Source of the DNA: Desulfobacteraceae bacterium
GTDB lineage: Bacteria; Desulfobacterota; Desulfobacteria; Desulfobacterales; SKZT01
DNA length: 36,902 nucleotides
Assembly: GCA_007127235.1 (NCBI GenBank)
Contig: SKZT01000209.1
Coordinates: forward strand, 1 to 36,902
Direction: 5' to 3'
Of this stretch, positions 8,849 through 30,702 are shown piece after piece (the first letter of the stretch is position 1; each line of letters begins with the position of its first letter). The notes under the pieces are model-generated. The model was given only the letters and a program-made list of their open reading frames with translations, was not told the origin of the DNA and ran no database searches. A program made the translations under genes and the position numbers.

Positions 8849-9835
8849 TTGTTCAAAGATATAACAGTGATTATCAGCGCCAGCCGTCGAACAGATATTC
8901 CGGCTTTTTATTCCGACTGGTTTTTCAAAAGAATGAAGCAAGGCTTTTTATATGTTCGCAATCCCATGAACAGAAAGCAGGTCTCCAAGATTATTCTCAA
9001 CAGGGAAGTCATTGACTGCATCGTTTTTTGGACAAAAAACTGTGAACCCATGGTGGCTAAATTAAAAAACATTTCGGCGTATACTTATTACTTTCAGTTT
9101 ACTGTGAACCCGTATGGAAATAAAATTGAAAAAAATGTCCCGACCTTGAAAAGATCTCTTCACAGTTTTAAAACCCTATCGGATCTGATCGGTCCGGATC
9201 GGGTCATCTGGAGATATGATCCCATATTCTTCCCCCAGGGATTTACCTTCTCTGATCATCTTCATTTTTTCAGAAAAACAGCAAAAAGCCTTTCAAAGCA
9301 TACCCGAAAATGTATGATAAGCTTTTTGGATGTCTACAAAAAGTGTAAAAAAAACATGAAACCGATCATGTATCGCAATCTCAAAGAGACAGAAATTTAT
9401 GAAATCGGCGAAAGGTTTGCTCTAATCGCTCAGGATTATAACATTAGAATGGAGACATGCGCAGAAAAAGCAGACCTTTCAAAATTTGGGCTTTCAAAAG
9501 GCAAATGCATTGATGACCGGCTGATTTCTAAAATTTCTCACAAAAACATTAAAGCAAAAAAAGACAAGGCTCAAAGAGATGCCTGCCGCTGCGTGGCTAG
9601 CATTGATATCGGAGCCTACAATTCGTGCATGCACCATTGCCTCTATTGTTATGCCAACTACAATTTTGCGACGGTCATAAAAAATTTCCGGCGACATGAC
9701 CCTGAATCGCCTTTGCTATATGGAAATCTGACGGGCGATGAAAAGATAACCGAAAGAAAACAGAAATACTCAGCCGTATATCAAAGTATACAGAATCGAC
9801 CCTATTGCATTTTACGCCCAAACATTTTCCAATAG
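8849..9835 (+). CDS. DUF1848 family protein with C-terminal radical-SAM-like Cys motif
   Basis: The 328-residue product begins with the DUF1848 signature SRRTDIPAFYSDWF (residues 12-25) and has FWTKN near 60 and WRYDPIFF near 121-128. Near the C-terminus is C260-X3-C264-X2-C267 (CMHHCLYCYAN), the spacing that holds the [4Fe-4S] cluster in radical SAM enzymes, where it is normally N-terminal. Other cysteines lie at 204, 220, 246 and 248. The family function is unknown. The likely start is either the TTG at 8849, one base after the E1 beta stop, or the GTG at 8867; neither has a clear Shine-Dalgarno sequence, so translation may depend on the upstream gene. What it does beside an E1 dehydrogenase is not evident. 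Confidence 0.85.
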   Translation: MFKDITVIISASRRTDIPAFYSDWFFKRMKQGFLYVRNPMNRKQVSKIILNREVIDCIVFWTKNCEPMVAKLKNISAYTYYFQFTVNPYGNKIEKNVPTLKRSLHSFKTLSDLIGPDRVIWRYDPIFFPQGFTFSDHLHFFRKTAKSLSKHTRKCMISFLDVYKKCKKNMKPIMYRNLKETEIYEIGERFALIAQDYNIRMETCAEKADLSKFGLSKGKCIDDRLISKISHKNIKAKKDKAQRDACRCVASIDIGAYNSCMHHCLYCYANYNFATVIKNFRRHDPESPLLYGNLTGDEKITERKQKYSAVYQSIQNRPYCILRPNIFQ

Positions 9836-9965: not shown

Positions 9966-11099
9966 ATGATTCAGTATGAGAATGTCACCAAAATATTCGG
10001 GTCAGGAGATAAATCTGTTACTGCAGTTGATAATGTGAATTTTGAAGTGGAAAAAGGCGAACTGGTAACACTACTGGGACCGTCCGGATGCGGTAAAACC
10101 ACGCTTTTAAGACTTACCAATCGTTTGCTTTCATTAACCCAGGGAAAAATAATTGTCGATGATCAAAACATCATGGATATCAATCGGGTAAAATTACGCC
10201 AGTCCATGGGATATGCTATCCAAGAGGTGGGTCTTTTCCCTAACAAAACGATTTACGGCAATATAGCCATTGTTCCCAGACTTTTAAAATGGGATGAAGA
10301 TCGCATCCGTGATCGGGTGGATGAGCTTTTGACAATGCTGCAGTTAGAGCCGGACACTTTTCGGGACCGTTATCCGGTTGAGCTATCGGGAGGACAGCAG
10401 CAGCGTATCGGCGTTGCCCGATGCCTCGCTGCAGATCCGAAAATTCTTCTTATGGATGAACCTTTCGGAGCCATAGACCCGATTAACCGGGTAGAAATCC
10501 AGGATGAGTTCTTAAGGGTTCAGGGGAAACTGAAAAAGACCATTATTTTTGTTACCCACGACCTTCAGGAGGCAATTAAAATGGGAGATAAGATTGCCAT
10601 TTTTCAAGAGGGACAGCTAATCCAATATGATACTCCTGAAACGATTCTTACCAATCCCAAAAACGAATACATCGCAGATTTTGTCGGAACCGACCGCGGC
10701 CTGAAAGTCCTGGGATTGAGAAAGGCAAAAGACGTAATGGTGGAAAACCCCGCCAACCTGATTCAGGCATCCACCAAAGCCTCTGACGCTCTTAAGTTTC
10801 TTCAGGACAAAAAATTGGAACATGGCACTGTAGTCGAAAAGGAAAAGCCGATTGGTTATTTAACATCTGCAAACCTGGAAGAGACTGAGGCCCCCATTAA
10901 AGAGATTGCAGAAGCATATCCGAAATTGATCACCCCTTATGACAATCTGAAAGATGTCATGTCCGTCATGCTCATGTATGACATCCGTGTTCTATGTGTG
11001 GTGGATGAAGACAACAACATGGCCGGTACCATCTCACTGGAAGATATCCAAAAATCAATTATGAAGATATATAGCGGAACCGGAGAGGATAAACATTAA
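9966..11099 (+). CDS. opuCA: Osmoprotectant (glycine betaine/choline-type) ABC transporter ATPase with CBS pair
   Basis: This 377-residue ATPase has Walker A GPSGCGKT at 38-45, the Q-loop, ELSGGQQQR near 138-147, and Walker B LLMDEPFGAIDP just after. The C-terminal 120 residues form a CBS-domain pair, with a degenerate first half, as in OpuCA/OpuBA/OsmV. In that family the CBS pair senses ionic strength and gates uptake of betaine, choline or carnitine. AAGGGGGAGT directly precedes the ATG. The next gene starts on the base after the stop codon, so this is the first gene of a four-gene operon. Substrate specificity cannot be read from this subunit. Confidence 0.92.
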   Translation: MIQYENVTKIFGSGDKSVTAVDNVNFEVEKGELVTLLGPSGCGKTTLLRLTNRLLSLTQGKIIVDDQNIMDINRVKLRQSMGYAIQEVGLFPNKTIYGNIAIVPRLLKWDEDRIRDRVDELLTMLQLEPDTFRDRYPVELSGGQQQRIGVARCLAADPKILLMDEPFGAIDPINRVEIQDEFLRVQGKLKKTIIFVTHDLQEAIKMGDKIAIFQEGQLIQYDTPETILTNPKNEYIADFVGTDRGLKVLGLRKAKDVMVENPANLIQASTKASDALKFLQDKKLEHGTVVEKEKPIGYLTSANLEETEAPIKEIAEAYPKLITPYDNLKDVMSVMLMYDIRVLCVVDEDNNMAGTISLEDIQKSIMKIYSGTGEDKH

Positions 11100-11768
11100 A
11101 TGGATGTCTGGCAGTTTCTTGCAGATAATAAAAAAAGGTGCCTTGCACTCACCTGGGAGCACATCTGGATTGTTTCCCTGGCATTGTTTATCGCGATTCT
11201 GATCGGTGTTCCCATCGGTATTGTTATCACCCGAAACAAGAAGGTCGCTCAGAGCGTAATCAACACCGCCAATGTGTTGATAACAATTCCCTCTATCGCC
11301 CTTTTCGGTATTCTGCTGCCCATTTTGTCTTTGATCGGCCACGGCCTCGGCAAAGTCCCTGCAATTACAGCTCTGGTTCTTTATAGTCAATTGCCCATTA
11401 TCCGAAATACCTATACCGCGATTCAAAATGTACCTTCGGAGTTGGTTGAGGCTGGACGGGGATTAGGGATGAGCAGATGGCGGAGGTTGAAAGAAGTTGA
11501 AATCCCTCTGGCAATACCGGTAATTATCGCGGGGCTTCGAACTGCTGCGGTCATGAACATCGGTATTGCGGCCATTGCAGCCTATATCGGAGCGGGTGGC
11601 CTGGGTGTTTTCATTCAAGAAGGTATCAGCAGGGTTCACCAGGAAATGATTGTGGCCGGCGCTATACTCGTTTCATTGCTGGCTATCCTTGTCGATGGCA
11701 CCATGGCACTTCTGGAAAGACTAATAACGCCTAAGGGGGTCAAGATTGGAAGGAAACAGAATCAATGA
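11100..11768 (+). CDS. opuCB: Osmoprotectant ABC transporter permease 1
   Basis: This 222-residue integral membrane protein has about six hydrophobic segments and the EAA-type cytoplasmic loop (EAGRGLGMSRWRRLKEVEIPLA, near 117-138) that docks on the ATPase. The length matches OpuCB/OpuCD/OsmW/OsmY, and no binding domain is fused. The ATG abuts the opuCA stop codon, and the 3' end overlaps the next permease by 4 bp (ATGA), which indicates tight translational coupling. It would form the heterodimeric inner-membrane channel with permease 2. Confidence 0.9.
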   Translation: MDVWQFLADNKKRCLALTWEHIWIVSLALFIAILIGVPIGIVITRNKKVAQSVINTANVLITIPSIALFGILLPILSLIGHGLGKVPAITALVLYSQLPIIRNTYTAIQNVPSELVEAGRGLGMSRWRRLKEVEIPLAIPVIIAGLRTAAVMNIGIAAIAAYIGAGGLGVFIQEGISRVHQEMIVAGAILVSLLAILVDGTMALLERLITPKGVKIGRKQNQ

Positions 11769-12505
11769 ACAAAGCCGTTTCCAAATCCTGGCGTTTTTTG
11801 ACAGCGATAATTCTGATTTTCAGCGGGATAGCCCTTGAACGAATTGGTACCATCGAATATCTCTCTGATCCCTTTGAACTGAAATATACTTTCAGCCTTG
11901 TATTGCAGCATATTTGGATGGTTGCTGCGAGTATGGCAATCGCGACCACCCTTGGACTTCTCATCGGGATCATTTTTACCAGGCCCGGATTCAAACGTTT
12001 TTCGGGACTTATGATGTACATTGTCGGGCTGGGGCAGACTATTCCCTCTCTGGCGGTTATCGCTCTGTCCATGAGCGTTCTCGGCGTGGGTTACCAGACC
12101 GCCATATTTGCTCTGTTTGTTTATTCAATTTTGCCGATTGCGCGAAATACGCTGGCCGGAATAAATTCAGTGCCAAAATGGATCATCGATGCCGCAAGAG
12201 GTATGGGCATGTCAAATTTTCGAATTTTATTTGACGTCGAATTGCCCAATGCCATGAAGGTTATCCTCACCGGATTCAGGATAGCCCTGGTTATTAACAT
12301 CGGAACTGCGGCTTTGGCATTTCTGATCGGTGCCGGAGGCCTGGGAGAACACATTTTTCCCGGTATCGATCTCATGCGGCCTGACAAATTGCTTGCAGGA
12401 GCAATCCCTACAACTCTTCTGGCTCTTTTGGCAGATTATATGGTAAAAATCTGCAGCCTGTTTCTTATTCCCAAGGGCATACGGTTAAAAGAGGAAGAAA
12501 AGTAA
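11765..12505 (+). CDS. opuCD: Osmoprotectant ABC transporter permease 2
   Basis: This second permease has 246 residues, an N-terminal hydrophobic segment, about six membrane spans in total, and the EAA-like loop DAARGMGMSNFRILFDVELP near 140-160. It is clearly homologous to permease 1, as in other two-permease OpuC systems. Its ATG overlaps the stop of permease 1. The C-terminus ends in charged residues facing the cytoplasm. The gene for the binding protein follows after 63 nt. Confidence 0.9.
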   Translation: MNKAVSKSWRFLTAIILIFSGIALERIGTIEYLSDPFELKYTFSLVLQHIWMVAASMAIATTLGLLIGIIFTRPGFKRFSGLMMYIVGLGQTIPSLAVIALSMSVLGVGYQTAIFALFVYSILPIARNTLAGINSVPKWIIDAARGMGMSNFRILFDVELPNAMKVILTGFRIALVINIGTAALAFLIGAGGLGEHIFPGIDLMRPDKLLAGAIPTTLLALLADYMVKICSLFLIPKGIRLKEEEK

Positions 12506-12568
12506 AAGGCGGCCTTCAGATAATTGTTTTTTCAAATATTGGACTGCAAAAACAGAAGGTAAAAAATA

Positions 12569-13486
12569 ATGGAAAAATTAAATATATTTAAATATTGTGT
12601 CGCTCTGGTGCTGGTGATCATGGCACTTTCATTCTCATCGCCGGTTGAGCCGGCAGATCTGATTGTGGTAGGAGGAAAAAATTTTACTGAACAGTATCTG
12701 CTGGCCGAACTGGCCGGATATCTTCTGGAGACAAACGGGTTGCCGGTTACCCTGAAAACAGGGGTCGGTTCGGCCGTGGTTCGAAGGGCTTTGATCAACG
12801 CCGAGATGGATCTCTACTACGAGTACACGGGTACTGCCTACACAGTATATTATGAAGAGTCGGATCGTAATATCATGACCAATCCCCAAAAAGTATTCGA
12901 GTGGGTCAAAAAAGCCGATGCTCAAAAGAAGTTGGTTTGGCTTCCTCCCGTAGAATTCAACAATACCTATACCCTGATAATGAGAAAGGATCATGCGGAT
13001 AGACTCGGAATTGAAAGTATAAGCGATATGAGCGATTATATCAATGCACATCCTCACGAATTGGTGGTAGGTGTAAACGCTGAATTCTGGGAACGTCCTG
13101 ACGGTTTTAAACCGCTGATGCAAACCTATGGTTTTCAGATTCCCTTTGCTCAACTTATAATAATGGACTCGGGCCTGGTCTACCTGGCACTCAGGAACAA
13201 AAGCGTGGATGTCTCCATGGGATTTGCCACAGATGGCAGGATTCAAGCTTTCGATTTTGTCACCATAAAGGACGATAAAAATTATTTTGCGGTTTACAAC
13301 CCGGCCCCGGTGGTCCGGGAAGAGACTTTGCAAAAACATCCCGAAATCCGCGATATACTGGAGCCACTCACAGTTCACCTTACGACAGAAGAAATGCGCC
13401 GAATGAATGCAAAAGTGGATGTCGAACACAAAGATGTCAGTACAGTAGCCCGTAAGTGGCTCGAAAAGAAAGAACTTTTAAAATAG
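12569..13486 (+). CDS. opuCC: Osmoprotectant ABC transporter periplasmic binding protein
   Basis: This 305-residue type II binding protein has an N-terminal signal peptide (hydrophobic residues about 9-24, likely cleavage before DLIV near 31). It lacks a lipobox Cys, so it should be soluble in the periplasm as in Gram-negative systems. The mature part opens with VGGKNFTEQYLLAEL and continues with DLYYEYTGTAY near 85-95, both hallmarks of OpuAC/OsmX/ProX-like proteins. The many Tyr and Trp residues are compatible with a cation-pi cage for quaternary ammonium compounds (inferred). AGAAGG lies before the ATG. It is the last gene of the operon and converges on the corrinoid-activation gene 50 nt away. 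Confidence 0.9.
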   Translation: MEKLNIFKYCVALVLVIMALSFSSPVEPADLIVVGGKNFTEQYLLAELAGYLLETNGLPVTLKTGVGSAVVRRALINAEMDLYYEYTGTAYTVYYEESDRNIMTNPQKVFEWVKKADAQKKLVWLPPVEFNNTYTLIMRKDHADRLGIESISDMSDYINAHPHELVVGVNAEFWERPDGFKPLMQTYGFQIPFAQLIIMDSGLVYLALRNKSVDVSMGFATDGRIQAFDFVTIKDDKNYFAVYNPAPVVREETLQKHPEIRDILEPLTVHLTTEEMRRMNAKVDVEHKDVSTVARKWLEKKELLK

Positions 13487-13536: not shown

Positions 13537-15177
13537 TCAGGATTCGGGAAAGGATAAGGAATCGACAAAGTGGTCCTGGAAGTTTTCATGGCAGGACAGA
13601 TCGATAACCTGGGTGGTTTTTGCAAGGTTCTGAGCTTCTATGAGGCTTTGAGGGTCGAAAAGTGTCAAAATAGCGCCTTCTCCGGCGGCATTTCCCACGA
13701 TTTGGATATTTTCTTCCGGCATGGGGGGAAACATGCCAATGGTGAGAGCATCCTCTTTGCCGATGTAGTTTCCGAAAGCACCCGCAACAAGCAGCTGGCG
13801 GGGAATTTCTACACCGATATGTTCACACAGAAGATCGATTCCGGTACGAAAGGCTCCCTTGGCAAGCTGAACATTTCGGATATCCGCCTGGGTCAAGGTT
13901 ATGGCTTCTCCGATGTCGGATTCGCGCTCGGGAACCAGAACAAATTCAGGAATCTGATCAGGGTTTAAACGAAGCTGCTCAATCTCAAGGCCTTGGTCAA
14001 AACGTCCATCGGACAGGATAATGTCGGCACGAAGCAACTCGGCTACCGCACTGATAATGCCAGAGCCGCAAATTCCCGATGGCTTCTGGTTTCCTTTTAC
14101 CAAACATGTGCATTTTCCGGTTTGCCGGTCGATGGACACTTCCGATATGGCTCCGGATACCGCCTGCATGCCATGTTGGATAATTGCGCCCTCCAGCGCG
14201 GGTCCCGTAGCGCATGATGTGGCCACCATGGATTGCTTGCCTGAAGCCATTAGTTCTCCATTGGTACCCACATCCGCAAGAATGGTGTCGAATGGGGCTT
14301 TTTTGAGATCCACAGCCAAAGCCGCAGCAATAATATCGGCACCCAGAAATCCGGATATGAGCGGAAGTGTCAGTATTTCGGCATCCACATTAAAATCAAA
14401 ACCAAGCTGGCCAGCGTAAACTTTTTGCATATCATAAAATTGCGGCACATAGGGAGCTTCCCCAATCGACGACGGATCAATACCCAACAGCAGGTGAAGC
14501 ATGGTGGGATTTCCCACCACGGTCACCTTTTTAAGTTGTTGGGTATTATAATTTTCCATGGAATAACACAACTTTTTGATACCCAGGTCGATGGCCCTGA
14601 CCACAATCTGCTGGAGCCGTTTTAATACCATGGGATTTTCAGCCATTGCTGTAATCCGGCTCATAACATCACTGCCGAAAAGTATCTGGGGATTTTTCAA
14701 GGAAACAGAACCGTCTATCACCCCTTGACTGAGATCACAAAGATAGACTGCAATAGAAGTGGTTCCCAGATCAACAGCGAGACCACGTTCGGAAACAGGG
14801 CCGATATTTTTGCTATAGCCGGCGATGCGGGATATGAGGGTATCGGAAACCTTCGGCTGTGGGGTAACCTCAGGACTCAAACCTGCCGCCAGGGGAATAT
14901 CGACCACCAGATTTTGGGTAACCACTTCCTGACAAGCCAGCCCATCCCGAAAGCTTTCTTTGAGTTTTGCTTTATCGTGTTCCCCTATATTATCTAAAGC
15001 GTTTTTTGAGGTAACCTCAGCGATTTTAACAGCGCATTTGGTACATCGTCCCTGACCTCCGCAGTCCGCCCGCAAAAAAATTCCTTCTTCGGACAAGGCG
15101 TACATAATGCTTTGCCCGTTTTGGGCTTTGATCAATTTTTTTTGCGGCAACGCCAGAATGTCGAAATGTTTGGTCAC
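13537..15177 (-). CDS. RACo-like corrinoid-protein reductive activator (2Fe-2S ferredoxin plus ASKHA ATPase)
   Basis: The protein starts with a plant-type ferredoxin domain whose cluster ligands are C39, C45, C48 and C82 (CGGQGRCTKC, then ACQE). A linker follows, and then a large ATPase domain of the acetate-kinase/Hsp70/actin fold, with AVDLGTTSIAVYL near 133-145, VGNPTMLHLLLG near 240 and ADVGTNGELMA near 305. This is the architecture of RACo/RamA-type activators (C-terminal DUF4445), which use ATP to reduce inactive Co(II) corrinoids in methyltransferases. I chose the GTG at 15175-15177 because AAGGGG lies 7 nt upstream. A longer frame begins at ATG 15198 or 15222 but has no ribosome site. 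It follows a MetH-activation-like gene on the same strand. Confidence 0.88.
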   Translation of the reverse strand: MTKHFDILALPQKKLIKAQNGQSIMYALSEEGIFLRADCGGQGRCTKCAVKIAEVTSKNALDNIGEHDKAKLKESFRDGLACQEVVTQNLVVDIPLAAGLSPEVTPQPKVSDTLISRIAGYSKNIGPVSERGLAVDLGTTSIAVYLCDLSQGVIDGSVSLKNPQILFGSDVMSRITAMAENPMVLKRLQQIVVRAIDLGIKKLCYSMENYNTQQLKKVTVVGNPTMLHLLLGIDPSSIGEAPYVPQFYDMQKVYAGQLGFDFNVDAEILTLPLISGFLGADIIAAALAVDLKKAPFDTILADVGTNGELMASGKQSMVATSCATGPALEGAIIQHGMQAVSGAISEVSIDRQTGKCTCLVKGNQKPSGICGSGIISAVAELLRADIILSDGRFDQGLEIEQLRLNPDQIPEFVLVPERESDIGEAITLTQADIRNVQLAKGAFRTGIDLLCEHIGVEIPRQLLVAGAFGNYIGKEDALTIGMFPPMPEENIQIVGNAAGEGAILTLFDPQSLIEAQNLAKTTQVIDLSCHENFQDHFVDSLSFPES

Positions 15178-15260
15178 GTGGCAACCCCTTTTGTTCATAT
15201 TCAATGCTAAATTTTGGAACATTGGCTGGTTTGCTGTCCGCCTATACAGCGCTTATGGCT

Positions 15261-15953
15261 TCACCAACGTGCCCCCACCTCAACGATCCGATATGGGCAG
15301 GTTTCCAGGCTGCACCTATAACATTTGTTAACATTGGTTTCGGCAGGCGCTTTTCTATGCAGAAATACAAAAAAAGACCATGATTTGGCCGGAATCATGA
15401 CCATTGAATCTGTCAGCGATACCCCGATATTGGCAGAATCCACCATTGAAAACAAATACGATTGAAAATCCATCGGAACATTATTGAATCCGGGCCCAAA
15501 GCGGCACCCGGTATACAAATCGTAATTTCGGGCCAGTGTGGTAATGTGTGAAAATGATAAGTTCGCCAGGGATTCCAACAACCCCACACCCGCAGCGTAG
15601 AAAAACAACCCCTCGAGAGCGCTGCCGTTTTTCATCATTTTATTGACTTCGGTTTCGAGGTTGGGGCCCAATGTACAAACACATGCAGCAACTTTAGAGA
15701 CATCTTCAGAAGGTCCAAATGAAAACAGCTTGTCACGGATATCATTTTTTAAATCGGATACATCATGCACAGCATAGACAAGGGCCGGGAAAACAAGTCT
15801 TTTGGCTTTATCCATAATTGACGCAGCCATTTTTTTCATCTCGTCGTCCATCCGATAACGGCTTCCGCCGGCATACCGGGCAATCTGTTTCAGGGTCAGA
15901 GGCAAATCCTCTGGTTTCGGGCGGGTAATAATGATGTTTTCTTTTGTGGTCAT
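15261..15953 (-). CDS. Vitamin B12-dependent methionine synthase activation-domain-like protein
   Basis: This stand-alone 230-residue protein resembles the AdoMet-binding activation domain of MetH. The stretch GCRFGPGFNNVPMD (149-162) followed by IGVSLTDSMVMIPAKSWSFF (176-195) parallels the MetH block that binds AdoMet and ends in the PxxSVSG region. Unlike E. coli MetH it ends in C211-X2-C214-X4-C219 (CYRCSLETCPYR), a Cys motif that suggests a metal or Fe-S site. In MetH this domain remethylates oxidised cobalamin with AdoMet and an electron donor. The RACo-like gene lies downstream on the same strand, so the pair probably serves one corrinoid protein encoded elsewhere. The Shine-Dalgarno sequence is weak. 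Confidence 0.8.
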   Translation of the reverse strand: MTTKENIIITRPKPEDLPLTLKQIARYAGGSRYRMDDEMKKMAASIMDKAKRLVFPALVYAVHDVSDLKNDIRDKLFSFGPSEDVSKVAACVCTLGPNLETEVNKMMKNGSALEGLFFYAAGVGLLESLANLSFSHITTLARNYDLYTGCRFGPGFNNVPMDFQSYLFSMVDSANIGVSLTDSMVMIPAKSWSFFVFLHRKAPAETNVNKCYRCSLETCPYRIVEVGARW

Positions 15954-16248: not shown

Positions 16249-19200
16249 CTACTCATTATTCATTGATTCCCCATCTCTCTGGGTCATGCCCACCATCACC
16301 ATGGACATCATGCTCATGACCAATGGCAGAAGCAAATCCGGGATAGGTACTTTTTTGTTTTGATACTCAAAAAGCGGGGGCAAAAGCAGCAGGTGGCTGA
16401 TGGGGTATTTAAACAATGATATCTCCTGTTGGCTTTCGTAAAAAGCTTCCTGAAAAATCAAAATCATCCGTGCATGCCGGGCTCCATAGGTAGACATTTC
16501 ATCCTGCACTTGGCCCAGGTATCGCTGGCTGGTAGCATTGAGAATTATCAGGTTGTCCTCCGTAGTGTCATAATCTTCCCTTAATACCGGAAAGTACCAA
16601 TCTCCTTCCGCAAAAAAAGGGGTTTCCGCCTGAAAAGAAAGGTATTCCGGCGACTGATTCAAAAAGACATCCGTGGTTTTACCTTTCAAATAGCGCTTTT
16701 CCCATTGCTCGACTTTTTCTTCTCCATATAAAGGCACCAGAGCATTGCGGGGTGCTAAACGCACGTATTTGTCACCAACGCGGGGATCTACAGTTACCAA
16801 AGGGCCATGGGCACTTTCCCCGAGAAAATAGCTTTGCGAGATCAGCCTGGAAAACTGGTCGAAACGATCAGTCCAAATATCTCCGACACCATCGGGAGGC
16901 CCGATGAAAAAGGAAGTTGAATATCTTGAATTGTCTTCCATGGAATTTTTTATCGCATTTTTTAAGTTGATGTTTCCCACGATATTAATAAGCCCCAAAC
17001 ACCCCTTTTTTAATGCCGATTTGATAATATTGGCTCGTGCCGGCACGAACTTGTTCATTGCTTCTATGAACAACAAAAATATGGTTAGATAAACCATGTC
17101 CGTTTCGCAGAAGGCAAAGGGCTCTTTTAAAAAACAACATCCAAGGGGATTGTTTAACCTGGAGATATCGCATTCGGGACCGACATATATGCACTCGGAA
17201 GGTAGTTTTTCGCCCACGGTTTCAACAGAAGCAATGTCGTGAGATTTTGAATCCAGGAGGAAAAAAAGGGAATGGGATTCAAAGCTGTCCCTGGTTTCCC
17301 ATGGATTTCCCACCCTGAAAGCTCCCGGAAGGAGGCGGTTGAGCTGAAGTGCCAGGTTTTTTGCCGCCGCTCCGGCGGATCTATCAAAGGTAAGAAAAAT
17401 GATTTCCTTTTCTTCTTTCAGGGCATCCGACAGGTGCGACACCACATCATCTATGGTATTTGTTTCCTGAGTATACAGCAATAAGTCAATGGCATTATGA
17501 GTCTGTATAATTTCAATAAGTTTTCGAATATGTTTAAAATAGATTTTCTCCCAGAAATTTTCAGCGCTTGATTCCCAGGCACTTTCATGAAAAAGCCAGC
17601 TGTCTGAAACCATGTCTTCGATAGGAATTCCCTGAGCTTTGAAACTTAATTGATGAAATTCTTTTGCAGCGGATCCAAGTCCTTTCAACGAGTTTCTTCC
17701 CGCAGTAACCGATTTGGCACGATTTCGGGGAAAATCGGAAGATCGTCCGTGAGCCCGCCCATATTCAAAGGACAACATGTAGAAAAATGCAAAATCGATA
17801 AAAGGCTGCACGCTGGGATCGACTTCCGGTAGAAAAATACAGCGGTTCTGAGAAAACATCTCCACTTGCGATTGTTCACGGATCGATATGGAAATGCCGA
17901 CAAAAGGAATTTTCTGGAGGTACAACTTGTTCATAATACCAATGGCCTCATTAAGCCGGGCTTTGTAGGTCGCATTGACCAAAATGAGATTATAATTCAA
18001 ATCCTTTCTCAGGCATTGTATATACAGATCATTATAGTCAAGGGGTCTTGATATAGAAGACCAGCTGCACTCCTCCAGCTGCATTCCTGCTTCATTGGCA
18101 ACCCCTGTGGTATTGAGAGCATCAATGATAAAAGCAGCACAGCTGTTCACACTTTCATAGGCCACTTGTTTGCAAAACATTTTCACCTGGTTGTCATTGA
18201 GCAAATTTGACAATGCGGGAGCAATTTGGCGAAGGCTTTCCAAAAGGTTCACGGCCTGTTTCTGACCGTAAATTCTTGAACTCAACCATGTGGCAAAAAG
18301 GCAGAGGCAAAACAGCGAACATATTGTACTTTTGATTCCCGAAACCGTAATTTCCTCACCACTCAGTGTAGATAAAAAACCGCCGCTTCTTGCAGCAACA
18401 AGGCCCAGGTCTGAAAACTGCTTTTCCGTAACCGCCAAAAAAAGCACATTATAGGACTTCAAATGATTGGCAAACTGAACGATTTCAGCTGTGGTTCCGG
18501 ACCAACTGCTGAGAATCACCAGATCTTTTGCAGGAGAAATGACCTTGAACAGATTTTCGATCTCCACGGGTTTTACCACCACTACATCCATTTGGGGAAG
18601 AGCGGTTCGCATAAAAAACCTTGCTGCCAGGTTCATATTACTGGCACTGCCCATCCCAACCAGCACGATACGTTTGAGCCTATTGAAATTATTTCCAAAA
18701 CGGCGTTGAAAAAGGCCTGTTTTGAGGTTCAAACTGGGAAGCTCATGGGAGTTGGGGACATAAAATCGCAGTATTTCCAAAAGTCTCGCCGGAATTTCAG
18801 CAAGATGGGTCTCATAAAATGAGGTATAGAAATCTTTCCGAACCTGGGGAGGGCTTAGAATCGTTTCAAAGGGTTCAATTTCAGGCATTGGATTTCCATC
18901 AAAGTCGGTTATGGAAACCGTCTTCTGCAACTGATTATTGCCAAACGTACTGGTAATACGAGCAAAAATCTGCTTGCCGTCCAAAGGATAAACCACCACC
19001 TTAAAATTGTCTAACAGCTCTTGTTCTTTTTCCTTATACCGACCAATTTCAGCATCTCTGTAAGCACCGGGTGCGTTTTGCAAAACCAGGGCATCCAGTG
19101 CTTCAAGGTGTTTTAACCTTAGGGATGCTAATTTACGGGTAGTCCGGCTGATCAATTCCTGTGGAAAAAGCCCCATGGCAGCATTAATGTCCGAAACCAC

Positions 19201-20817
19201 CATAAAATCATCTGTATCAGGACATTTTACGATAAATACCGGTCTTTCGTGGCTTGCTACAAGCAGTTTGCGGGCAGAGTAAAGGCTCATCCCAGCCACT
19301 GCCACCTGGCCACCGCCCCGGGTCAATATTCTGGCTGTTTCAATGAAAGCCAGTTCATCGATCTCTTCAGGAGGTTTTCCCTTAACACGATGGTAAACCT
19401 TATAATCAACAGACTGACTTCCAATATCATAATTTTCAAGACCTTTTTCAATCTGGGTACGAATACATTTAAATCTCTTTTTTTCTTCGCTGAGCCGTTT
19501 AAAGAAATATCCCCAAAGCAATGCGAAGTATTCAGAGGAATTGTCACTTCTGAAAGTATACCTAGCCACTTTTTCCAGAAAAAAACGGATATCGTTTTCA
19601 ATGTTGGTATTAAATTGACCATTTAAAACAATAGTCCTTTCAAAAAGATTGTCGAAAAAAGGATGGGAGTTTCTGGCAGTCACCGCTGACTGAAGTGCCC
19701 AGCGGCCCTGCGAAACCACAGGGGGCAAAAGGCTGGCGAGAACTGTTGGATGCGTTTTGCCGGGCACCACGAATTGTCCCATCTGCAACTCTTTGGGGGT
19801 GAGATCCAACGGTTTGGTAAAACCCTCCAGGTGTTTTTCCAGGAATGTCATTGCTGCTGCTGCGGCCCACCCGTAAAGGTTGGCACCTTTTTCTGCAAAA
19901 TAAAGGGTTTTCCAATCCAAAGGAAAAATTTCCTTTGCCCGGGGCCAGACAGTTTCCAGTTGTTGCTGCAATGCCTCTTTCAGCCGCGGGCGTAAAGGAA
20001 GACGACTCATCAAAACCGCATCGATTAAGCGAAAGATGGACCTGACACCATCCGTATCATAATCGACCGGAATTTTTATCTGTGTAATTCTCAAAAACCT
20101 CCATAAAAACTCAGAAGCTTTTTGTTTTTGTCCGGATGATTCCAGTTCATATTCTTGTGCCCGCGGTACATTTTCCTCGGAAAGAATTTCTTCGAAAAGC
20201 TGATCGAAAGCATTGAAAATATCCGCCGTTTCCACTTCCAGGTATCCTTCTTTACGGCGTTTTTCAATGGTATGAGACAAAGCATTTCGCACCAGTGCCT
20301 TTATAACCACCGTAGAAAGATCGTACTCACCAATTAGCTTATTAATCAGATTCTGAAGGTCTTCGCGCGATTCGATAACCATTGATGGCAGTGGATCGGA
20401 CCTGCCGGGCCATCCGGGAACAATTCTGAGGGCATCGGGGTTATCGATATCGATCAGCTCCTTGAACAAAGGGTACGATATTTTTCCTTTTTTGAGATCC
20501 AGAAAATAATTTGTCGGAAGATTTTCAAAAAGAATCAATCGCAGTTGCCGGTCCTCAATATAGCTTTTGTCTGCCATGGTATCAAAAAATTCTATCAATT
20601 CCTGAGGCAAATTAGGATAGATTGGATTTTTTAACAGGAGATCTACAAGCTGAATCACTGAACCGACAGTTTTTCTTGCCCGAAGCGGTTCATTTTCATC
20701 TCCGAAAACCCCGATTCCCGTACTGTCGGGTGCCCGGTAAATAATGGCCGACATAGCTGTCAAAACACGGGTCAGGCTGTTTGCCGCCCGACCGAAATAG
20801 CCGACTATTCCACACAT
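16249..20817 (-). CDS. Giant GlmS-like protein: interrupted class II glutaminase plus multiple SIS domains
   Basis: The 1522-residue product starts MCGIVGY, exposing the N-terminal Cys nucleophile of class II glutamine amidotransferases. Other GlmS glutaminase residues can be matched: R28 in YRAPDS, the RW pair at 372-373 in QGRWALQSA, N399-G400 in VLNG, and D425 in RSD. About 300 residues (roughly 60-365) separate R28 from RW, where GlmS has about 45. SIS domain 1 spans about 715-850 (GMGSA at 721-725, SWSGTT at 771-776). SIS domain 2 spans about 880-1040, with E916 in LEECSW and DFPRNRAKSVT at 1028-1038, the normal C-terminal block of GlmS with its catalytic Lys (K1035). Some 480 further residues follow, including AHGPL at 1336-1340, which resembles the KHGP motif that is missing from SIS 2. 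The start has AAAGG 7 nt upstream. It is last in an operon with pyrR and moaB. An amido-sugar or sugar-phosphate role is inferred; the substrate is unknown. Confidence 0.85.
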   Translation of the reverse strand: MCGIVGYFGRAANSLTRVLTAMSAIIYRAPDSTGIGVFGDENEPLRARKTVGSVIQLVDLLLKNPIYPNLPQELIEFFDTMADKSYIEDRQLRLILFENLPTNYFLDLKKGKISYPLFKELIDIDNPDALRIVPGWPGRSDPLPSMVIESREDLQNLINKLIGEYDLSTVVIKALVRNALSHTIEKRRKEGYLEVETADIFNAFDQLFEEILSEENVPRAQEYELESSGQKQKASEFLWRFLRITQIKIPVDYDTDGVRSIFRLIDAVLMSRLPLRPRLKEALQQQLETVWPRAKEIFPLDWKTLYFAEKGANLYGWAAAAAMTFLEKHLEGFTKPLDLTPKELQMGQFVVPGKTHPTVLASLLPPVVSQGRWALQSAVTARNSHPFFDNLFERTIVLNGQFNTNIENDIRFFLEKVARYTFRSDNSSEYFALLWGYFFKRLSEEKKRFKCIRTQIEKGLENYDIGSQSVDYKVYHRVKGKPPEEIDELAFIETARILTRGGGQVAVAGMSLYSARKLLVASHERPVFIVKCPDTDDFMVVSDINAAMGLFPQELISRTTRKLASLRLKHLEALDALVLQNAPGAYRDAEIGRYKEKEQELLDNFKVVVYPLDGKQIFARITSTFGNNQLQKTVSITDFDGNPMPEIEPFETILSPPQVRKDFYTSFYETHLAEIPARLLEILRFYVPNSHELPSLNLKTGLFQRRFGNNFNRLKRIVLVGMGSASNMNLAARFFMRTALPQMDVVVVKPVEIENLFKVISPAKDLVILSSWSGTTAEIVQFANHLKSYNVLFLAVTEKQFSDLGLVAARSGGFLSTLSGEEITVSGIKSTICSLFCLCLFATWLSSRIYGQKQAVNLLESLRQIAPALSNLLNDNQVKMFCKQVAYESVNSCAAFIIDALNTTGVANEAGMQLEECSWSSISRPLDYNDLYIQCLRKDLNYNLILVNATYKARLNEAIGIMNKLYLQKIPFVGISISIREQSQVEMFSQNRCIFLPEVDPSVQPFIDFAFFYMLSFEYGRAHGRSSDFPRNRAKSVTAGRNSLKGLGSAAKEFHQLSFKAQGIPIEDMVSDSWLFHESAWESSAENFWEKIYFKHIRKLIEIIQTHNAIDLLLYTQETNTIDDVVSHLSDALKEEKEIIFLTFDRSAGAAAKNLALQLNRLLPGAFRVGNPWETRDSFESHSLFFLLDSKSHDIASVETVGEKLPSECIYVGPECDISRLNNPLGCCFLKEPFAFCETDMVYLTIFLLFIEAMNKFVPARANIIKSALKKGCLGLINIVGNINLKNAIKNSMEDNSRYSTSFFIGPPDGVGDIWTDRFDQFSRLISQSYFLGESAHGPLVTVDPRVGDKYVRLAPRNALVPLYGEEKVEQWEKRYLKGKTTDVFLNQSPEYLSFQAETPFFAEGDWYFPVLREDYDTTEDNLIILNATSQRYLGQVQDEMSTYGARHARMILIFQEAFYESQQEISLFKYPISHLLLLPPLFEYQNKKVPIPDLLLPLVMSMMSMVMVGMTQRDGESMNNE

Positions 20818-20835: not shown

Positions 20836-20859
20836 GTTCAAGGTTCAACGTTCAAGGTT
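20836..20859. repeat. Short direct repeat GTTCAAGGTT
   Basis: GTTCAAGGTT occurs twice within 24 bp, separated by CAAC, in the 40-nt gap between moaB and the giant gene, and it reaches the moaB stop codon. Similar TTCAAGGTT tracts are common intergenic filler in environmental bacterial genomes (general impression). No function is apparent. Confidence 0.6.
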
Positions 20860-21361
20860 ATTCAGTTCCATGCTTGATCAAATGCCCCAGTTCATGAAAA
20901 ATCAATTCATTACAGGCAAGCTTGCAAGCCTTGAGACTTCCCGGGATGCTAAAAACCAGAGTATTTTTGCTGACCCCGGCCATAGCCCGGGAAAGCATTG
21001 CAGCGGTACCGATTTCTTTGTAACTTAATTGGGTAAATAAAACGGCGAACCCGGGAAGTTCTTTTTCCAATAACGGCTGAACAGCTTCGATAGTAACATC
21101 CCTGGAAGCAATTCCCGTGCCTCCGGTAAGAATCACCGCCTGTATTTTTTTATCTTTTATACATTGTGTGACCGCCTCCATGATTGTCTCCTGATCATCA
21201 TCGACCACACGATGTAAAACCACGTCATGGCCTGCATCAATCGCCTTTTTTTTTATCCAGTGACCGCTTTCGTCATTTTCAATAATACGTGTGCTGGAAA
21301 CGGACAAGACTGCAATACAAGCCTTCTGAGGTGCCTGTTTTTTATGTTGGTGCGTACCCAT
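20858..21361 (-). CDS. moaB: Molybdenum cofactor biosynthesis protein MoaB/Mog family
   Basis: This 167-residue protein has the MoaB/MogA fold signatures: LTGGTGIASRDVT at 79-90, which binds molybdopterin, and SRAMAGVSKNTLVFSIPGS near 124-142. The family adenylylates molybdopterin (MogA) or is a related trimer or hexamer in Mo/W cofactor synthesis. The length fits MoaB, and no MoeA-like domain is fused. The ATG directly follows the pyrR stop codon with no gap, so translation is coupled. The divergent neighbour operon carries mobA, moaE and moaC, which supports a cofactor role. Confidence 0.9.
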   Translation of the reverse strand: MGTHQHKKQAPQKACIAVLSVSSTRIIENDESGHWIKKKAIDAGHDVVLHRVVDDDQETIMEAVTQCIKDKKIQAVILTGGTGIASRDVTIEAVQPLLEKELPGFAVLFTQLSYKEIGTAAMLSRAMAGVSKNTLVFSIPGSLKACKLACNELIFHELGHLIKHGTE

Positions 21362-21901
21362 TTATGATTCCTTATCAAGGATGACCTTGTCTTCACCGTC
21401 GCATTCTTTCATCATGACATTGACCATTTCAGAGCGACGGGTTTCAACAAACTTTCCCACATAATTGCCCTGGATTGGCAATTCGCGATGTCCCCGGTCC
21501 ACAAGCACCACCAGCTCGATACGATCCGGGCGTCCAAAATCAATGAGCGCATCCATGGCCGATCGAATTGTCCTGCCTGTAAAAAGAACATCATCTACCA
21601 GAATAATCTTTTTGCCATCCACAGAAAATGGAATCTCGGTAGCCTGGATTACGGGATTGGTACTAATCCGGGTCCAATCATCCCGATAAAGTGTTATATC
21701 CACCTGACCGGTGGGGACATCAACACCCTCGATTTCCCTGATTTTTTCCTGCAGACGTCTGGCCAGATGAACACCTCGGGTTTGAATGCCAACCAGCGCC
21801 AGGCTTTCCGCCCCTTTATGAACTTCTAAAATTTCGTGACTGATTCGAACCAGGATGCGGTCGATATCAGAAGCATCCAGGATTGTATCTGATGACTTCA
21901 T
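21362..21901 (-). CDS. pyrR: PyrR-type bifunctional pyrimidine regulator / uracil phosphoribosyltransferase
   Basis: This 179-residue protein has the PRPP-binding loop IILVDDVLFTGRT at 99-111 and the PyrR blocks GIQTRGVHLARRL (38-50) and DITLYRDDW (68-76). PyrR binds pyr mRNA to control attenuation in many bacteria and has uracil phosphoribosyltransferase activity. No pyr gene or PyrR-binding loop is visible nearby, so here it may act mainly as the enzyme or control a distant operon. The ATG at 21901 has AAGGAAA upstream. It is the first gene of the pyrR-moaB-GlmS-like operon. Confidence 0.92.
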   Translation of the reverse strand: MKSSDTILDASDIDRILVRISHEILEVHKGAESLALVGIQTRGVHLARRLQEKIREIEGVDVPTGQVDITLYRDDWTRISTNPVIQATEIPFSVDGKKIILVDDVLFTGRTIRSAMDALIDFGRPDRIELVVLVDRGHRELPIQGNYVGKFVETRRSEMVNVMMKECDGEDKVILDKES

Positions 21902-22304
21902 GAAATTTTCCTTATGGTTTTATCTGTATTATTTACAAATCCAAGGGCATGGCATACTATAGACCTGCCGTGGCTTTTAATGTTTTAATTATTGTCTGTC
22001 CGGAAACTCCTATACTCCCTCTCCCTTTGGGGGAGGGTGGGGGTGAACGATATCATGAGGTTATCTTTCCCTCCCCCAGCCCCTCCCAGTAGGAGAGGCG
22101 TTTCCAAACAGATTCCATATCTACATTATATGGGAAACTAAAATCAAGCATCATATTATGATTATGGTGCCTGTTTTTTGGGAAGGTTTATCAGCGGGTT
22201 ATTTTTCCACCCCTGAAACCTGCTTGATTTTTCGCATAAATTTTTCTATGTTCTCAGGTGGGGATTTCATTAAACACTATGAACGCAATAGAGGGTTAAA
22301 TCCC
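21902..22304. other. Intergenic region between divergent operons
   Basis: This 403-nt gap separates pyrR (minus) and mobA (plus). Its centre is filled by the family B repeat at 21995-22106. The right part (22158-22304) is open in the mobA frame but lacks a start with a ribosome site and shows no MobA homology, so I treat it as untranslated. Both operons' promoters should lie here, but no hexamer pair stands out. Confidence 0.5.
21995..22106. repeat. Dispersed palindromic repeat, family B (copy 1)
   Basis: This element of about 112 bp is nearly identical to 25218-25334. It starts TCCGGAAAC and ends GTTTCC. CTCCCTCTCCCTTTGGGGGAGGG in the left arm pairs partly with CCCTCCCCCAGCCCCTCCC in the right, around a centre containing GATATCATGAGG. 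It looks like a mobile or MITE-like palindromic unit without coding capacity. Confidence 0.8.
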
Positions 22305-22913
22305 ATGAGAACAAACTGTACCGGGGTTATTCTGGCAGGAGGTTTGGCCAAAAGATTTTCAGGCGAGCTCAAGGCCTTTTTGCCTGTTGGAGGGAAAAAA
22401 ATCCTGGATTGTATTTACGCGGTGTTTAGTCAGTTGTTTGACGAAATCATACTGGTGACCAATGAGCCTGCCGATTATCTGGATTGGGATTTAATGATAG
22501 GTACCGATTTATATCCTGTTCGAAGTTCACTGACAGGATTGCATGCAGGATTGTTTTATGCATCCAATCCCTATGTTTTTTTTTCAGCTTCCGATACCCC
22601 TTTTTTGAAAGTAAAACTTGTCAAAGTCCTTTTAGATCATTTGGACAGTCAACCCGATGTGGTCATCCCGGAAACCTCCAAAGGAATTGAGCCACTTTGC
22701 GCCATATATTCAAAACGATGTTTTCAGAGTATTGAACATCACCTTTTGAAAAGGGATTTTAAAATTCAAAATTTTTTTAAAAAAGCACGGGTAAAAAAAA
22801 TTTCTGAAAAACGTTTAAAAATTGCAGACCCGGATTTGTTGAGTTTTTTTAATATCAATACTGCCGAAGATTTACAAATGGCTGAAAATATCCTGAAAAA
22901 AGGGAAGGGGTAA
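22305..22913 (+). CDS. mobA: Molybdenum cofactor guanylyltransferase-like protein MobA
   Basis: The protein of about 202 residues has the nucleotidyltransferase motif ILAGGLAKRFSGELKAFL at residues 9-26 and the SASDTPFLK block near 95-103, where the Asp binds Mg. MobA links GMP to molybdopterin to form the bis-MGD cofactor. The Gly-Arg of the usual AGGxSxRMG motif is slightly altered (KRFSG), so a related nucleotidyltransferase role is possible. I start at ATG 22305 with GAGGG 9 nt upstream. The longer frame from 22158 adds 49 residues that precede the motif without homology. moaE follows after 59 nt. Confidence 0.85.
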   Translation: MRTNCTGVILAGGLAKRFSGELKAFLPVGGKKILDCIYAVFSQLFDEIILVTNEPADYLDWDLMIGTDLYPVRSSLTGLHAGLFYASNPYVFFSASDTPFLKVKLVKVLLDHLDSQPDVVIPETSKGIEPLCAIYSKRCFQSIEHHLLKRDFKIQNFFKKARVKKISEKRLKIADPDLLSFFNINTAEDLQMAENILKKGKG

Positions 22914-22972
22914 GGTGGTAGTTTTAAGTTAAAACCTTAAACTTAATTTTTTCTGATTAATACGGAGGAAAA

Positions 22973-23338
22973 GTGATTCTTTTACATTTGTTGGACCAAA
23001 TTAAGAAACACCCCGATTTTCATCGGGCAGGGATGATTTTATGCCACAACGGGGTTGTTCGGGGCACGTCCAGGGATGGGCGGAAAATTTCGAGACTAAG
23101 TGTATCTGTGGATCACCAGAAGCTCAAACAGATAATCGAATCGAATAGAAAGCTTCCGGGGATTCTTGAGATTTTGGCCCATATTAACGAGGGCAAGGAT
23201 CTTTCTGTTGGAGATGATATCATGTATCTGATTGTAGCAGGGGATATTCGTGAAAACGTGATTTCGGTTCTTCATGATACCTTAAATGAAATCAAATCCA
23301 CGGTTACTCAAAAAACCGAGTATTTTTCGGACTCATGA
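22973..23338 (+). CDS. moaE: Short MoaE-like protein
   Basis: The 121-residue product resembles the large subunit of molybdopterin synthase: AGMILCHNGVVRGTSRDG (19-36) and YLIVAGDIRENV (82-93) match the MoaE core. It ends soon after, without the C-terminal PFWKKE-type block that carries a catalytic Lys in E. coli MoaE. No moaD is in the window. Such short forms are annotated as MoaE in Desulfobacterota, as I recall, but their activity is uncertain. The start is GTG with GGAGG 5 nt upstream. It lies between mobA and moaC. Confidence 0.75.
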   Translation: MILLHLLDQIKKHPDFHRAGMILCHNGVVRGTSRDGRKISRLSVSVDHQKLKQIIESNRKLPGILEILAHINEGKDLSVGDDIMYLIVAGDIRENVISVLHDTLNEIKSTVTQKTEYFSDS

Positions 23339-23375
23339 GGTAGTTTCTCAAAAAGTTCGGATAGTTGATTTATCT

Positions 23376-23416
23376 TGGGTTTAACCTGGATTCCTGCTTT
23401 CGCAGGAATGACGGAA
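23376..23416. repeat. Small hairpin repeat ATTCCTG-CAGGAAT
   Basis: GGATTCCTGCTTTCGCAGGA (from 23388) is a compact 7-bp hairpin (23390-23396 with 23403-23409), followed by ATGAC. The same word is a very common dispersed repeat in many proteobacterial genomes (general knowledge). It separates moaE and moaC. Confidence 0.65.
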
Positions 23417-23468
23417 AAAACTTGATTATCGAGTATAAACATAGAACAAAAAATCGGGTGGTTATTTC

Positions 23469-23936
23469 ATGAAAGATTTTACACACATTGACGATAAAGG
23501 AAGGGTACGCATGGTGGATGTGACGCATAAGGACACCACTGAGCGGACGGCTTTGGCTGAGGGTAAAATCTCCATGACCCCTGATACGTTTGAAAAAATT
23601 TACAACCAATCGATCAAAAAAGGCAACGTGCTTGAAACGGCCAGAATCGCCGGAATTATGGCTGCCAAAAAAACATCCGATCTGATCCCCATGTGCCATC
23701 CGTTAAACATCACCCATGTGGCGGTCGATTTTTTCCCGGATAAACAGAAAAACGCCATAGGCATTCAGGCATCCGTGCGTTTAAAAGGCCAAACCGGTGT
23801 GGAAATGGAGGCTCTGACAGCGGTTTGCGCAGCCGCCCTGACCATTTATGATATGTGCAAATCTTATGATAAGGCGATGATTATTTCCGACATAAAGTTA
23901 CTGAAAAAAACGGGCGGAAAAAGTGGAACATGGTAA
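23469..23936 (+). CDS. moaC: Cyclic pyranopterin monophosphate synthase MoaC
   Basis: This 155-residue enzyme matches MoaC along its whole length: [14 protein letters not shown] (15-28), IPMCHPL (73-79) and the active-site block [15 protein letters not shown] (110-124), then YDMCKSYDK with the catalytic Asp-Lys. MoaC converts the MoaA product to cyclic pyranopterin monophosphate, the second step of Mo-cofactor synthesis. MoaA is not in the window. The ribosome site is weak (GGGTGG). It follows mobA and moaE and precedes mltA with a 27-nt gap. Confidence 0.95.
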
Positions 23937-28803: not shown

Positions 28804-30702
28804 TTAATCCTTCTTAAACGAGATTTTCAGATAATAGACACCATTTTCAAGCTTGAAATTAACAATTTGGCCGCTTTTTTCAAAAACTTTGATCATCGCT
28901 TTATTAGAGGCAAGTATATCGGCTTTAAAACCTTTAATACCCTGCTGTCTGGCTGTTCGCACCAGGATTTTGTACATATAACCCGCTATTCCAAGGTTTT
29001 GATATTTTTCATCCACCAGAAACGCCACATCTGCATATCCACTGTTTTTTTCCCTGACAAAGCGTGCTTCGGCAATAATTTGTCCGTTTCCCGGTTCTCC
29101 GATAAGTCCCACAACAGAGATGGAATTGGAATAATCAATGTTGACATATTCCTGCATCCGGGCATGGGGCATGGTTTTAATAGGAGAAAAATACCGGGCA
29201 TATACCGCTTCATCGGAAAAACGGTAAAAAAGCCGCCGCATCTGCTCTTCATCCGAAGGTTTTATGGCCCTGAATCTGACTTTCAGATTGTTTTCGAAAA
29301 TATGTGATGAAGCAATTTCCGACGGATATAGATGAGCGCTTTCCGGAATAAAAATCTGGTCCTGGAAAATAATTCTTGCAGCCTTGGCCTGATCCAGCAG
29401 TTTTTCCCGGTCGTCCGGATGAGCCAATTCAATAAGGGTCTGTGCCCTCTCCCGTATGGTTTTTCCACCAAGCTCAGCCGAACCATATTCTGTTATAACC
29501 ATATCGACAGATTCTCTGAGTGTAAATAAATTGGGATAACCCTCAACATTTAACACAATGTTGGAAACACCCTCGAGATTTCTGCTGGGAAGAGCGAAAA
29601 TAGATATACCTCCTCTTGAAAGTTCAGCTCCGTTTACGAGATTCATGGTCTCTCCGGGACCTGCGGAAACATTTCTTTTTCCTGTATGCAAGGCGATTCG
29701 GCCGGTTAAATCCACCTTCCGCGCCGGCAATATTGCCGCAAAATCAGGATTTCGGCCAATATTGATCGGATTGGACACATTGTCTATTGCCTGAAACTCC
29801 ACCAAAGGATTTCTATCCAGCCATTGAAAAAGCTCCCTGGTACCCATGGCATAAGAAGTCAGAGATTTGCCCCTGAAAATATTTTTATTTTGATTGGTTA
29901 CTGCGCCGCTTTGAATCAGCTCCATGAGGGCATCGGTAAAAACGGGAGAATGAATACCCAAATGGCGCTTGTCCGCCAGAAACTTTCCCAGGGCTTCAAA
30001 CAAGGGATCGATTAAAAAAGCCAGGCAACTACAATCTTCTATTCTTGAAGCAACATTAGCAGCCACCTTTTCATAAACAGCATCTGTTGGCCAACGCTCC
30101 AAAATAATGGGTTTTTCCTCGGCTTCTACAAGATAGTCAAATTCGGAAATATGTACAAAGGTGTCCCCAAAAGTAAAGGGCGTGTCAGAATTGATCTCTC
30201 CAATAACCCAACGGGCCCGATTCATGGCATAACGCGCCACATCCACAGACACACCAAGGCTGCAATACCCATCTTCATTGGGAGGCGTTATCTGGATCAA
30301 AACCACATCCACATGAATTATTCCACTCTGTATATACCGGTGTATCTGTGAAAACCGGCAGGGTATAAGGTCAACCCGGCCCGCGGTAATTTCTTCACTG
30401 GCAACCCATCCTGAAAAGAACGTTTTCAGCCGGAATTTTTGTGAAACGGGCGGTGCAATCCCCTCCCCGGATATGGCTTCACCGAAGCTCAACAACTGAA
30501 TTAATTCCAGGTCCTGAAGGTTAGCCGCCCTGGAGCTCATGAGATGTTTTATCAGCGTTCCGGGTTCTCCCCCGCCGGTTCCCAAAAAGATGCTCATCCC
30601 CGGCTCAATTTCTTCAAAAGCCTCTTCCGGAGTTACAATTCGTTTCCGCCATTCTTCCTGAGGCACCAACCGCAACTTTTTAACCCTTTTTAATATGCCC
30701 AT
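28804..30702 (-). CDS. Acetyl-CoA hydrolase/transferase-like protein fused to a GNAT acetyltransferase
   Basis: The protein of 632 residues (from ATG 30702) has an N-terminal acetyl-CoA hydrolase/CoA-transferase module (about 20-460; GTGGGEPGTLIKHL near 41-54, NEDGYCSLG near 142-150). A C-terminal GNAT domain follows (about 475-632; VDEKYQNLGIAGYMYK is the acetyl-CoA loop). In 4-hydroxybutyrate CoA-transferases the GIHTE-like motif supplies the catalytic Glu; here it reads GIHSP (H251-S252-P253), so that Glu is missing. Similar fusions are annotated as bifunctional proteins, but the architecture also parallels Pat-type protein acetyltransferases. Possible starts are TTG 30711, GTG 30708 and ATG 30702, none with a good ribosome site. 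alr follows in the same operon. Confidence 0.88.
   Translation of the reverse strand: MGILKRVKKLRLVPQEEWRKRIVTPEEAFEEIEPGMSIFLGTGGGEPGTLIKHLMSSRAANLQDLELIQLLSFGEAISGEGIAPPVSQKFRLKTFFSGWVASEEITAGRVDLIPCRFSQIHRYIQSGIIHVDVVLIQITPPNEDGYCSLGVSVDVARYAMNRARWVIGEINSDTPFTFGDTFVHISEFDYLVEAEEKPIILERWPTDAVYEKVAANVASRIEDCSCLAFLIDPLFEALGKFLADKRHLGIHSPVFTDALMELIQSGAVTNQNKNIFRGKSLTSYAMGTRELFQWLDRNPLVEFQAIDNVSNPINIGRNPDFAAILPARKVDLTGRIALHTGKRNVSAGPGETMNLVNGAELSRGGISIFALPSRNLEGVSNIVLNVEGYPNLFTLRESVDMVITEYGSAELGGKTIRERAQTLIELAHPDDREKLLDQAKAARIIFQDQIFIPESAHLYPSEIASSHIFENNLKVRFRAIKPSDEEQMRRLFYRFSDEAVYARYFSPIKTMPHARMQEYVNIDYSNSISVVGLIGEPGNGQIIAEARFVREKNSGYADVAFLVDEKYQNLGIAGYMYKILVRTARQQGIKGFKADILASNKAMIKVFEKSGQIVNFKLENGVYYLKISFKKD

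Follow-up and report, generated by a model that had tools for sequence, protein, structure and literature searches.

A 1522-residue GlmS-like protein with a split glutaminase and a second SIS–SIS module, and its probable link to methylated-amine catabolism

The stretch of DNA analyzed here, hereafter the window (36,902 nucleotides, contig SKZT01000209.1 of a Desulfobacteraceae bacterium), encodes a giant protein that is of the GlmS kind and lies outside the glmS equivalog. Its domain order, of which we are highly confident, is a split glutaminase with Cys2, SIS1 and SIS2, an internal C-loop with K1035, and a second SIS–SIS. Our main reading, to which we give a probability of about one half, is that this GlmS paralogue, a GlmS-type chain extended by a second SIS–SIS, is used in the corrinoid-dependent breakdown of quaternary amines. 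The gene and its parts are listed below by window position, with residue numbers of the protein and, in brackets, the evidence for each.

16249–20817, minus strand: giant GlmS-like gene, 1522 aa, ATG start (full-length homologues)
20620–20817, minus strand: glutaminase part 1 (class II GATase, Ntn), residues 1–66, with Cys2 and R28 (invariant in the alignment; AF2 and Foldseek to the GlmS/GFAT glutaminase)
19720–20619, minus strand: insert 1 inside the glutaminase, residues 67–366, mostly helical (alignments, DSSP of the model, no Pfam match)
18868–19719, minus strand: glutaminase part 2, residues 367–650, with R372-W373, H385, N399-G400 and S427 (profile match to GFAT-1 91–182, residue table)
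18208–18720, minus strand: SIS1, residues 700–870, phosphate loop S771-W772-S773-G-T-T776 (sub-threshold Pfam SIS; GFAT profile; Foldseek)
17737–18207, minus strand: SIS2, residues 871–1027, E909 and E916 kept (E481 and E488 of GlmS), KHGP loop absent (profile match, residue table)
17698–17736, minus strand: internal GlmS C-loop, residues 1028–1040, with K1035 (K603) and T1038 (human T679) (profile match, residue table)
17038–17493, minus strand: SIS3-like domain and helical linker, residues 1109–1260, phosphate loop lost (AF2 secondary structure, hhalign to SIS1–SIS2, alignment block)
16252–17037, minus strand: SIS4-like domain, residues 1261–1522 (hhalign of SIS2 against the C-terminal quarter; phmmer)
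16786–16824, minus strand: His504-type loop LGESAHGPLVTVD, residues 1332–1344, with H1337 (alignment, residue table)

About 50 full-length homologues, of about 1450–1870 aa, were found in Desulfobacterales, related Thermodesulfobacteriota, Olavius symbionts and Spirochaetota, those in relatives being 39–72% identical across the whole chain. A full-length giant is carried by 37 of the 291 genomes of the class and by four more from a wider phylum sample. Among named genomes it occurs in Desulfobacterales, Desulfospira joergensenii DSM 10085 (L121), Desulfotignum, Desulfobacula, Desulfohalobiaceae and Desulfarculaceae, as well as in Olavius symbionts and three Spirochaetota. These proteins were recovered by searching genome contigs with an alignment as query; a single-protein query gave none. 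Since the same full-length frame, free of stops, recurs in dozens of independent assemblies, that of D. joergensenii included, and nothing was found that favors an assembly error or an accidental fusion of two genes, this explanation of the length can be dismissed. Most of the features reported by a first-pass annotation of the sequence, which described a GlmS-like amidotransferase or isomerase with a split glutaminase, a displaced C-loop and extra SIS units, are conserved in the 52 homologues of our residue table and are therefore not due to chance. That description is supported. No protein of this type was described in the open-access papers searched.

The reading frame opens with MCGI, and Cys2, the N-terminal nucleophile of GlmS and GFAT, is invariant in the 52 homologues. 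A glutaminase at the N-terminus is also what the predicted fold indicates: the AF2 model of residues 1–700 (pTM 0.83) has an Ntn glutaminase fold, and among solved structures it comes closest to GFAT-1 and E. coli GlmS (1xff, TMt 0.61, Foldseek). C2, R28, R372, W373, H385, N399, G400 and S427 are kept nearly without exception. The matches to GlmS proposed earlier for R28, R372-W373 and N399-G400 hold. D425, on the contrary, had been mistaken for the glutamine-binding Asp, as D123 of GlmS aligns in the profile with Ser427, which is invariant (52 of 52 rows). The roughly 300 residues seen between R28 and RW correspond to insert 1, which is conserved across the homologues (AEKGxNxYG, among other motifs) and matched no known domain or family in Pfam, NCBIfam or PDB searches; two smaller helical inserts lie in glutaminase part 2. 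From the GlmS glutamine pocket (R73, T76, H77 and D123), the equivalent of R73 alone is retained, as R372, while T76 is replaced by Leu, Ile, Met or Val and H77 by an invariant Gln376. In GlmS, it is D123 that binds glutamine by its alpha-amino group. Its replacement by an invariant Ser points to a remodeled pocket and, because of the role of the lost residue, to a donor that may differ from free L-glutamine; to judge from these substitutions, the amide donor of the giant is probably not free L-glutamine, or it is bound differently.

Residues 700–1040 (module 1) correspond to the GlmS isomerase module ending in its C-loop, PRNRAKSVT, with a GFAT-1 profile match of E 3e-24 and fold matches to GlmS isomerases of TMt up to 0.90 (Foldseek), which bears out the two SIS domains already recognized here. 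The SIS family PF01380 reaches only 21 bits over residues 715–805, under its gathering score of 25, although the fold match is strong. The phosphate loop of SIS1 (S347-x-S349-x-x-T352 in GlmS) is present, S771, S773 and T776 being conserved; the profile alignment confirms that Gln348 has become Trp772, and S771-W772-S773 is kept in the homologues. The C-terminal block of GlmS, FPRNRAKSVT with K1035, is indeed internal and far from the chain end, and both K1035 and T1038 are kept in the 52 homologues. E916 is retained in most rows, and position 913 (K485) is Lys in most of them and Gln in the window protein. The K503-H504 loop is absent from module 1, the lack of KHGP in SIS2 being confirmed by the alignment. 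Thus far the giant shares with GlmS and GFAT the order glutaminase (Cys, Ntn)–SIS1–SIS2–C-loop Lys, the phosphate loop, Glu488 and the folds. It departs from them in the 300-residue glutaminase insert, the replaced D123, T76, H77 and Gln348, the internal position of the C-loop, and the displacement of the His504 loop from SIS2 into an added SIS–SIS module. Against the GlmS equivalog model TIGR01135, it scores 101 bits, the curated cut-off being 418.

The added part, residues 1040–1522, gave only weak GlmS matches and no family in Pfam, NCBIfam and PDB searches. Residues 1109–1522 (module 2) align collinearly with residues 700–1027 over 260 columns (E 5e-4, hhalign probability 31), SIS2 aligns with SIS4 (E 2e-5, probability 77), both matches being of moderate strength, and phmmer weakly matches residues 1243–1363 to residues 409–529 of E. 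coli GlmS. The proposal of at least one more SIS unit was correct as to the extra SIS and understated its extent, which is a whole second SIS–SIS module. Module 2 has neither phosphate loop nor Lys tail and retains G-E-x-A-H-G-P-L-x-T-V-D (GES-AHGPL-VTVD). The AHGPL motif that had been spotted well beyond the normal end of GlmS was confirmed at residues 1336–1340, and the loop is found in 33 of the 52 homologues.

The catalytic set of GlmS is distributed over the two modules: the equivalents of E488 and K603 (E916 and K1035) sit in module 1, and that of H504 (H1337) only in module 2. In human GFAT-1 (PMC7000685, the source also of the residue numbers T679 and His577), both monomers contribute residues to each sugar site, and His577, the equivalent of H1337, is supplied by the other monomer. 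Given the complementary losses and a His that the partner subunit donates in GlmS, the chain resembles a pseudo-dimer that arose by fusion, and we consider it somewhat more probable than the contrary that its two modules form one composite site. The first-pass suggestion that ammonia may be channeled to a different active site is amended accordingly, as these losses favor a composite site over a second independent one. The states at positions 916 and 1337 agree in all 52 rows, with both residues kept in 33 (one of which has Asp instead of Glu at 916) and neither in 19. The latter are the Desulfobacula/Desulfotignum/Desulfospira clade, in which the residues at 916, 913 and 1337 were lost together (19 of 19 rows). 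On the tree of the N-terminal 660 residues this coupled loss is a single event (100/100 support), and it is therefore consistent with a shared site without being independent proof of one. The 19-member clade keeps the same gene neighbors as the other giants, so isomerization cannot be the whole role of the protein.

The genes next to the giant in the window are the following.

15261–15953, minus strand: B12-dependent methionine synthase activation-domain protein (Pfam PF02965), directly downstream of the giant
13537–15222, minus strand: RACo-type reductive activator of corrinoid proteins (PF14574/PF17651; corr_regen_AcsV match under its cut-off)
9966–13486, plus strand: OsmF-type glycine-betaine ABC transporter, with ATPase, two permeases and binding protein (12569–13486; OsmF match under its cut-off)
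20858–21361, minus strand: MoaB, upstream neighbor, lineage-local
21362–21901, minus strand: PyrR, upstream neighbor (NF003549, 248.6 bits, cut-off 138)

Across 61 giant loci, the recurrent neighbors are MttB-type methyltransferases, MmgE/PrpD, the OsmF-type betaine binding protein with its ABC genes, an MtgC-like corrinoid protein, a methyl-THF:corrinoid methyltransferase, RACo and RpiR regulators. An MttB gene lies within 10 kb of the giant in 37 of these loci, against about 0.9 expected from the MttB density of 12 genomes that carry a giant (86 MttB genes in 59 Mb), although the loci are related and the 37 do not count as independent events. In Spirochaetota the order is MttB–giant–MttB, and some loci hold Sarcosine oxidase-like SoxBA genes, an Fe-alcohol dehydrogenase and an aldehyde ferredoxin oxidoreductase. 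In the window itself no MttB gene is found near the giant, and the B12 activation, RACo and betaine transporter genes are present instead; the first of them is also downstream of the giant in the two nearest relatives, and the OsmF-type transporter, which faces the giant here, recurs at other giant loci. Taken together, the giant is very likely linked to methylated-amine catabolism. The same company of MttB, MtgC-like corrinoid protein, methyl-THF methyltransferase, RACo and OsmF-type transporter characterizes the MttB-superfamily corrinoid systems, for example that of the glycine betaine enzyme MtgB; unlike the enzymes of that superfamily, the giant itself is no methyltransferase. Full-text literature searches yielded no paper that places a SIS protein together with MttB or corrinoid betaine systems.

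The pyrR/moaB neighborhood had been noted as the operon of the giant. Both genes physically adjoin it, but among the 61 loci moaB is common only to the window and a same-genus genome, and pyrR occurs in the window alone; they were rejected as functional context because the linkage is not conserved. MoaB, MobA and MoaC form a group of molybdenum cofactor genes at the upstream end of the giant (window 20858–23936). Elsewhere in the window, a 635-aa protein (28804–30711) fuses acetyl-CoA hydrolase/transferase domains with a GNAT acetyltransferase domain, and a DUF1848 protein (8849–9835) adjoins E1/transketolase-type dehydrogenase subunits. An Rfam scan of the window gave no cobalamin or other riboswitch. 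MttB genes adjoining the giant in other genomes (loci L121, L106, L115 and L098) match Rfam PYLIS_3, the pyrrolysine insertion sequence of mttB, and their frames are full-length without a stop. In the same-genus genome (L143, 8184–15468), the genes run in the order MttB-like, asparagine-synthetase-like GATase, metallo-hydrolase-like, a second MttB-like gene, corrinoid protein and a third MttB.

Under our main reading, the two modules would pack within one chain like the two halves of the GlmS dimer. Module 1, with its internal C-loop, would bind the phosphate and form a Schiff base on K1035, while module 2 would donate the ring-opening H1337, a role of the partner subunit in GlmS, giving one composite site per chain. 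Cys2 would hydrolyze the amide, and the C-loop would guide the ammonia to its acceptor, a phosphorylated carbonyl compound, in a reaction that would process or recapture nitrogen in methylated-amine catabolism. More tentatively, the giant might represent an undescribed enzyme class: a single-chain, GlmS-derived pseudo-dimer of a catalytic module and a His-donor module, connected with MmgE/PrpD and with demethylation by MttB, which transfers nitrogen in one direction or the other between an amide that is not free glutamine and a phosphorylated acceptor.

A second kind of large GlmS is found in the same organisms. Canonical GlmS above the glmS cut-off is absent from 57 of 58 relatives, the exception (G007) having a normal GlmS, and most of the order carries a long GlmS of about 1180–1350 aa with inserts, an internal C-loop, an extra C-terminal domain and the catalytic residues. 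The source genome encodes one of about 1260 aa with these residues (G000:C172; L015, 481–4272, minus strand). The long GlmS resembles the giant in its GlmS catalytic set and in its isomerase profile match (E 2e-11). In contrast, it has one isomerase module, the KH loop in SIS2, TDT with D123 kept and other insert positions in the glutaminase, and it is nearly universal in the order, which the giant is not. Some giants (L006, L007, L037, L038, L082, L091 and L101) bear a further C-terminal tail of about 300 aa, which hhalign identifies as a homologue of the long GlmS C-terminal domain (probability 93, E 3e-7). To judge from this one shared domain, the giant probably arose from a long-GlmS-type ancestor by duplication of the isomerase module, the tail being lost later in most members. 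In a tree built on the isomerase regions of the giant, long GlmS, GlmS, FrlB and AgaS, the sequences were too divergent and the branches too long to place the giant, and the C-terminal domain in common is the better guide to its ancestry.

Other functions have to be weighed against a role in nitrogen transfer. The giant could be a deaminase or deglycase whose composite SIS site strips the amine from a phosphorylated amino-sugar or an Amadori-type conjugate of methylated-amine breakdown, in the manner of FrlB or AgaS. These enzymes share with it the GlmS-isomerase-type double SIS fold, and the catabolic gene context and the RpiR sugar-phosphate-type regulators at 12 of the 61 loci would suit such a function. 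We nevertheless regard it as unlikely, since FrlB and AgaS have neither glutaminase, C-loop Lys nor second module, whereas the giant retains its whole glutaminase, the Schiff-base Lys and the C-loop, and we noticed no kinase gene among those that recur next to it, which also counts against our main reading. It is also doubtful that the protein has lost part of its activity and serves as a scaffold or sensor to control corrinoid methyl transfer, its SIS modules sensing a ligand: the clade without isomerase residues is still kept beside MttB, and the large conserved helical insert could serve as a docking surface, but a pure scaffold would have no need of Cys2, N399-G400, K1035 and a phosphate loop that are (nearly) invariant. 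Quite improbable is an additional, decorated glucosamine-6-phosphate synthase using the usual glutamine and fructose-6-phosphate. Cys2, the oxyanion residues, the phosphate loop, E488, K603 and the His504 loop are all represented in the window protein; nonetheless, its score falls far below the glmS cut-off, its glutamine pocket is altered at T76, H77 and D123, the genome already has a long GlmS, the equivalents of E488 and H504 are lost in the 19-member clade, and giant genes sit with MttB.

Betaine-type amines are an important source of carbon and nitrogen in marine sediments. To our knowledge, the known corrinoid systems account only for methyl transfer. That a conserved enzyme of some 1500 residues is tied to corrinoid genes in organisms as different as sulfate reducers, symbionts of worms and spirochaetes suggests that a step is missing from this picture, and the giant may be an undescribed part of the pathway for betaine-type amine demethylation in marine sulfate reducers and some spirochaetes. 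It is also a natural experiment on the conversion of a homodimer's active site into a single asymmetric chain, in which the His donated by the partner would be contained in a fused second copy.
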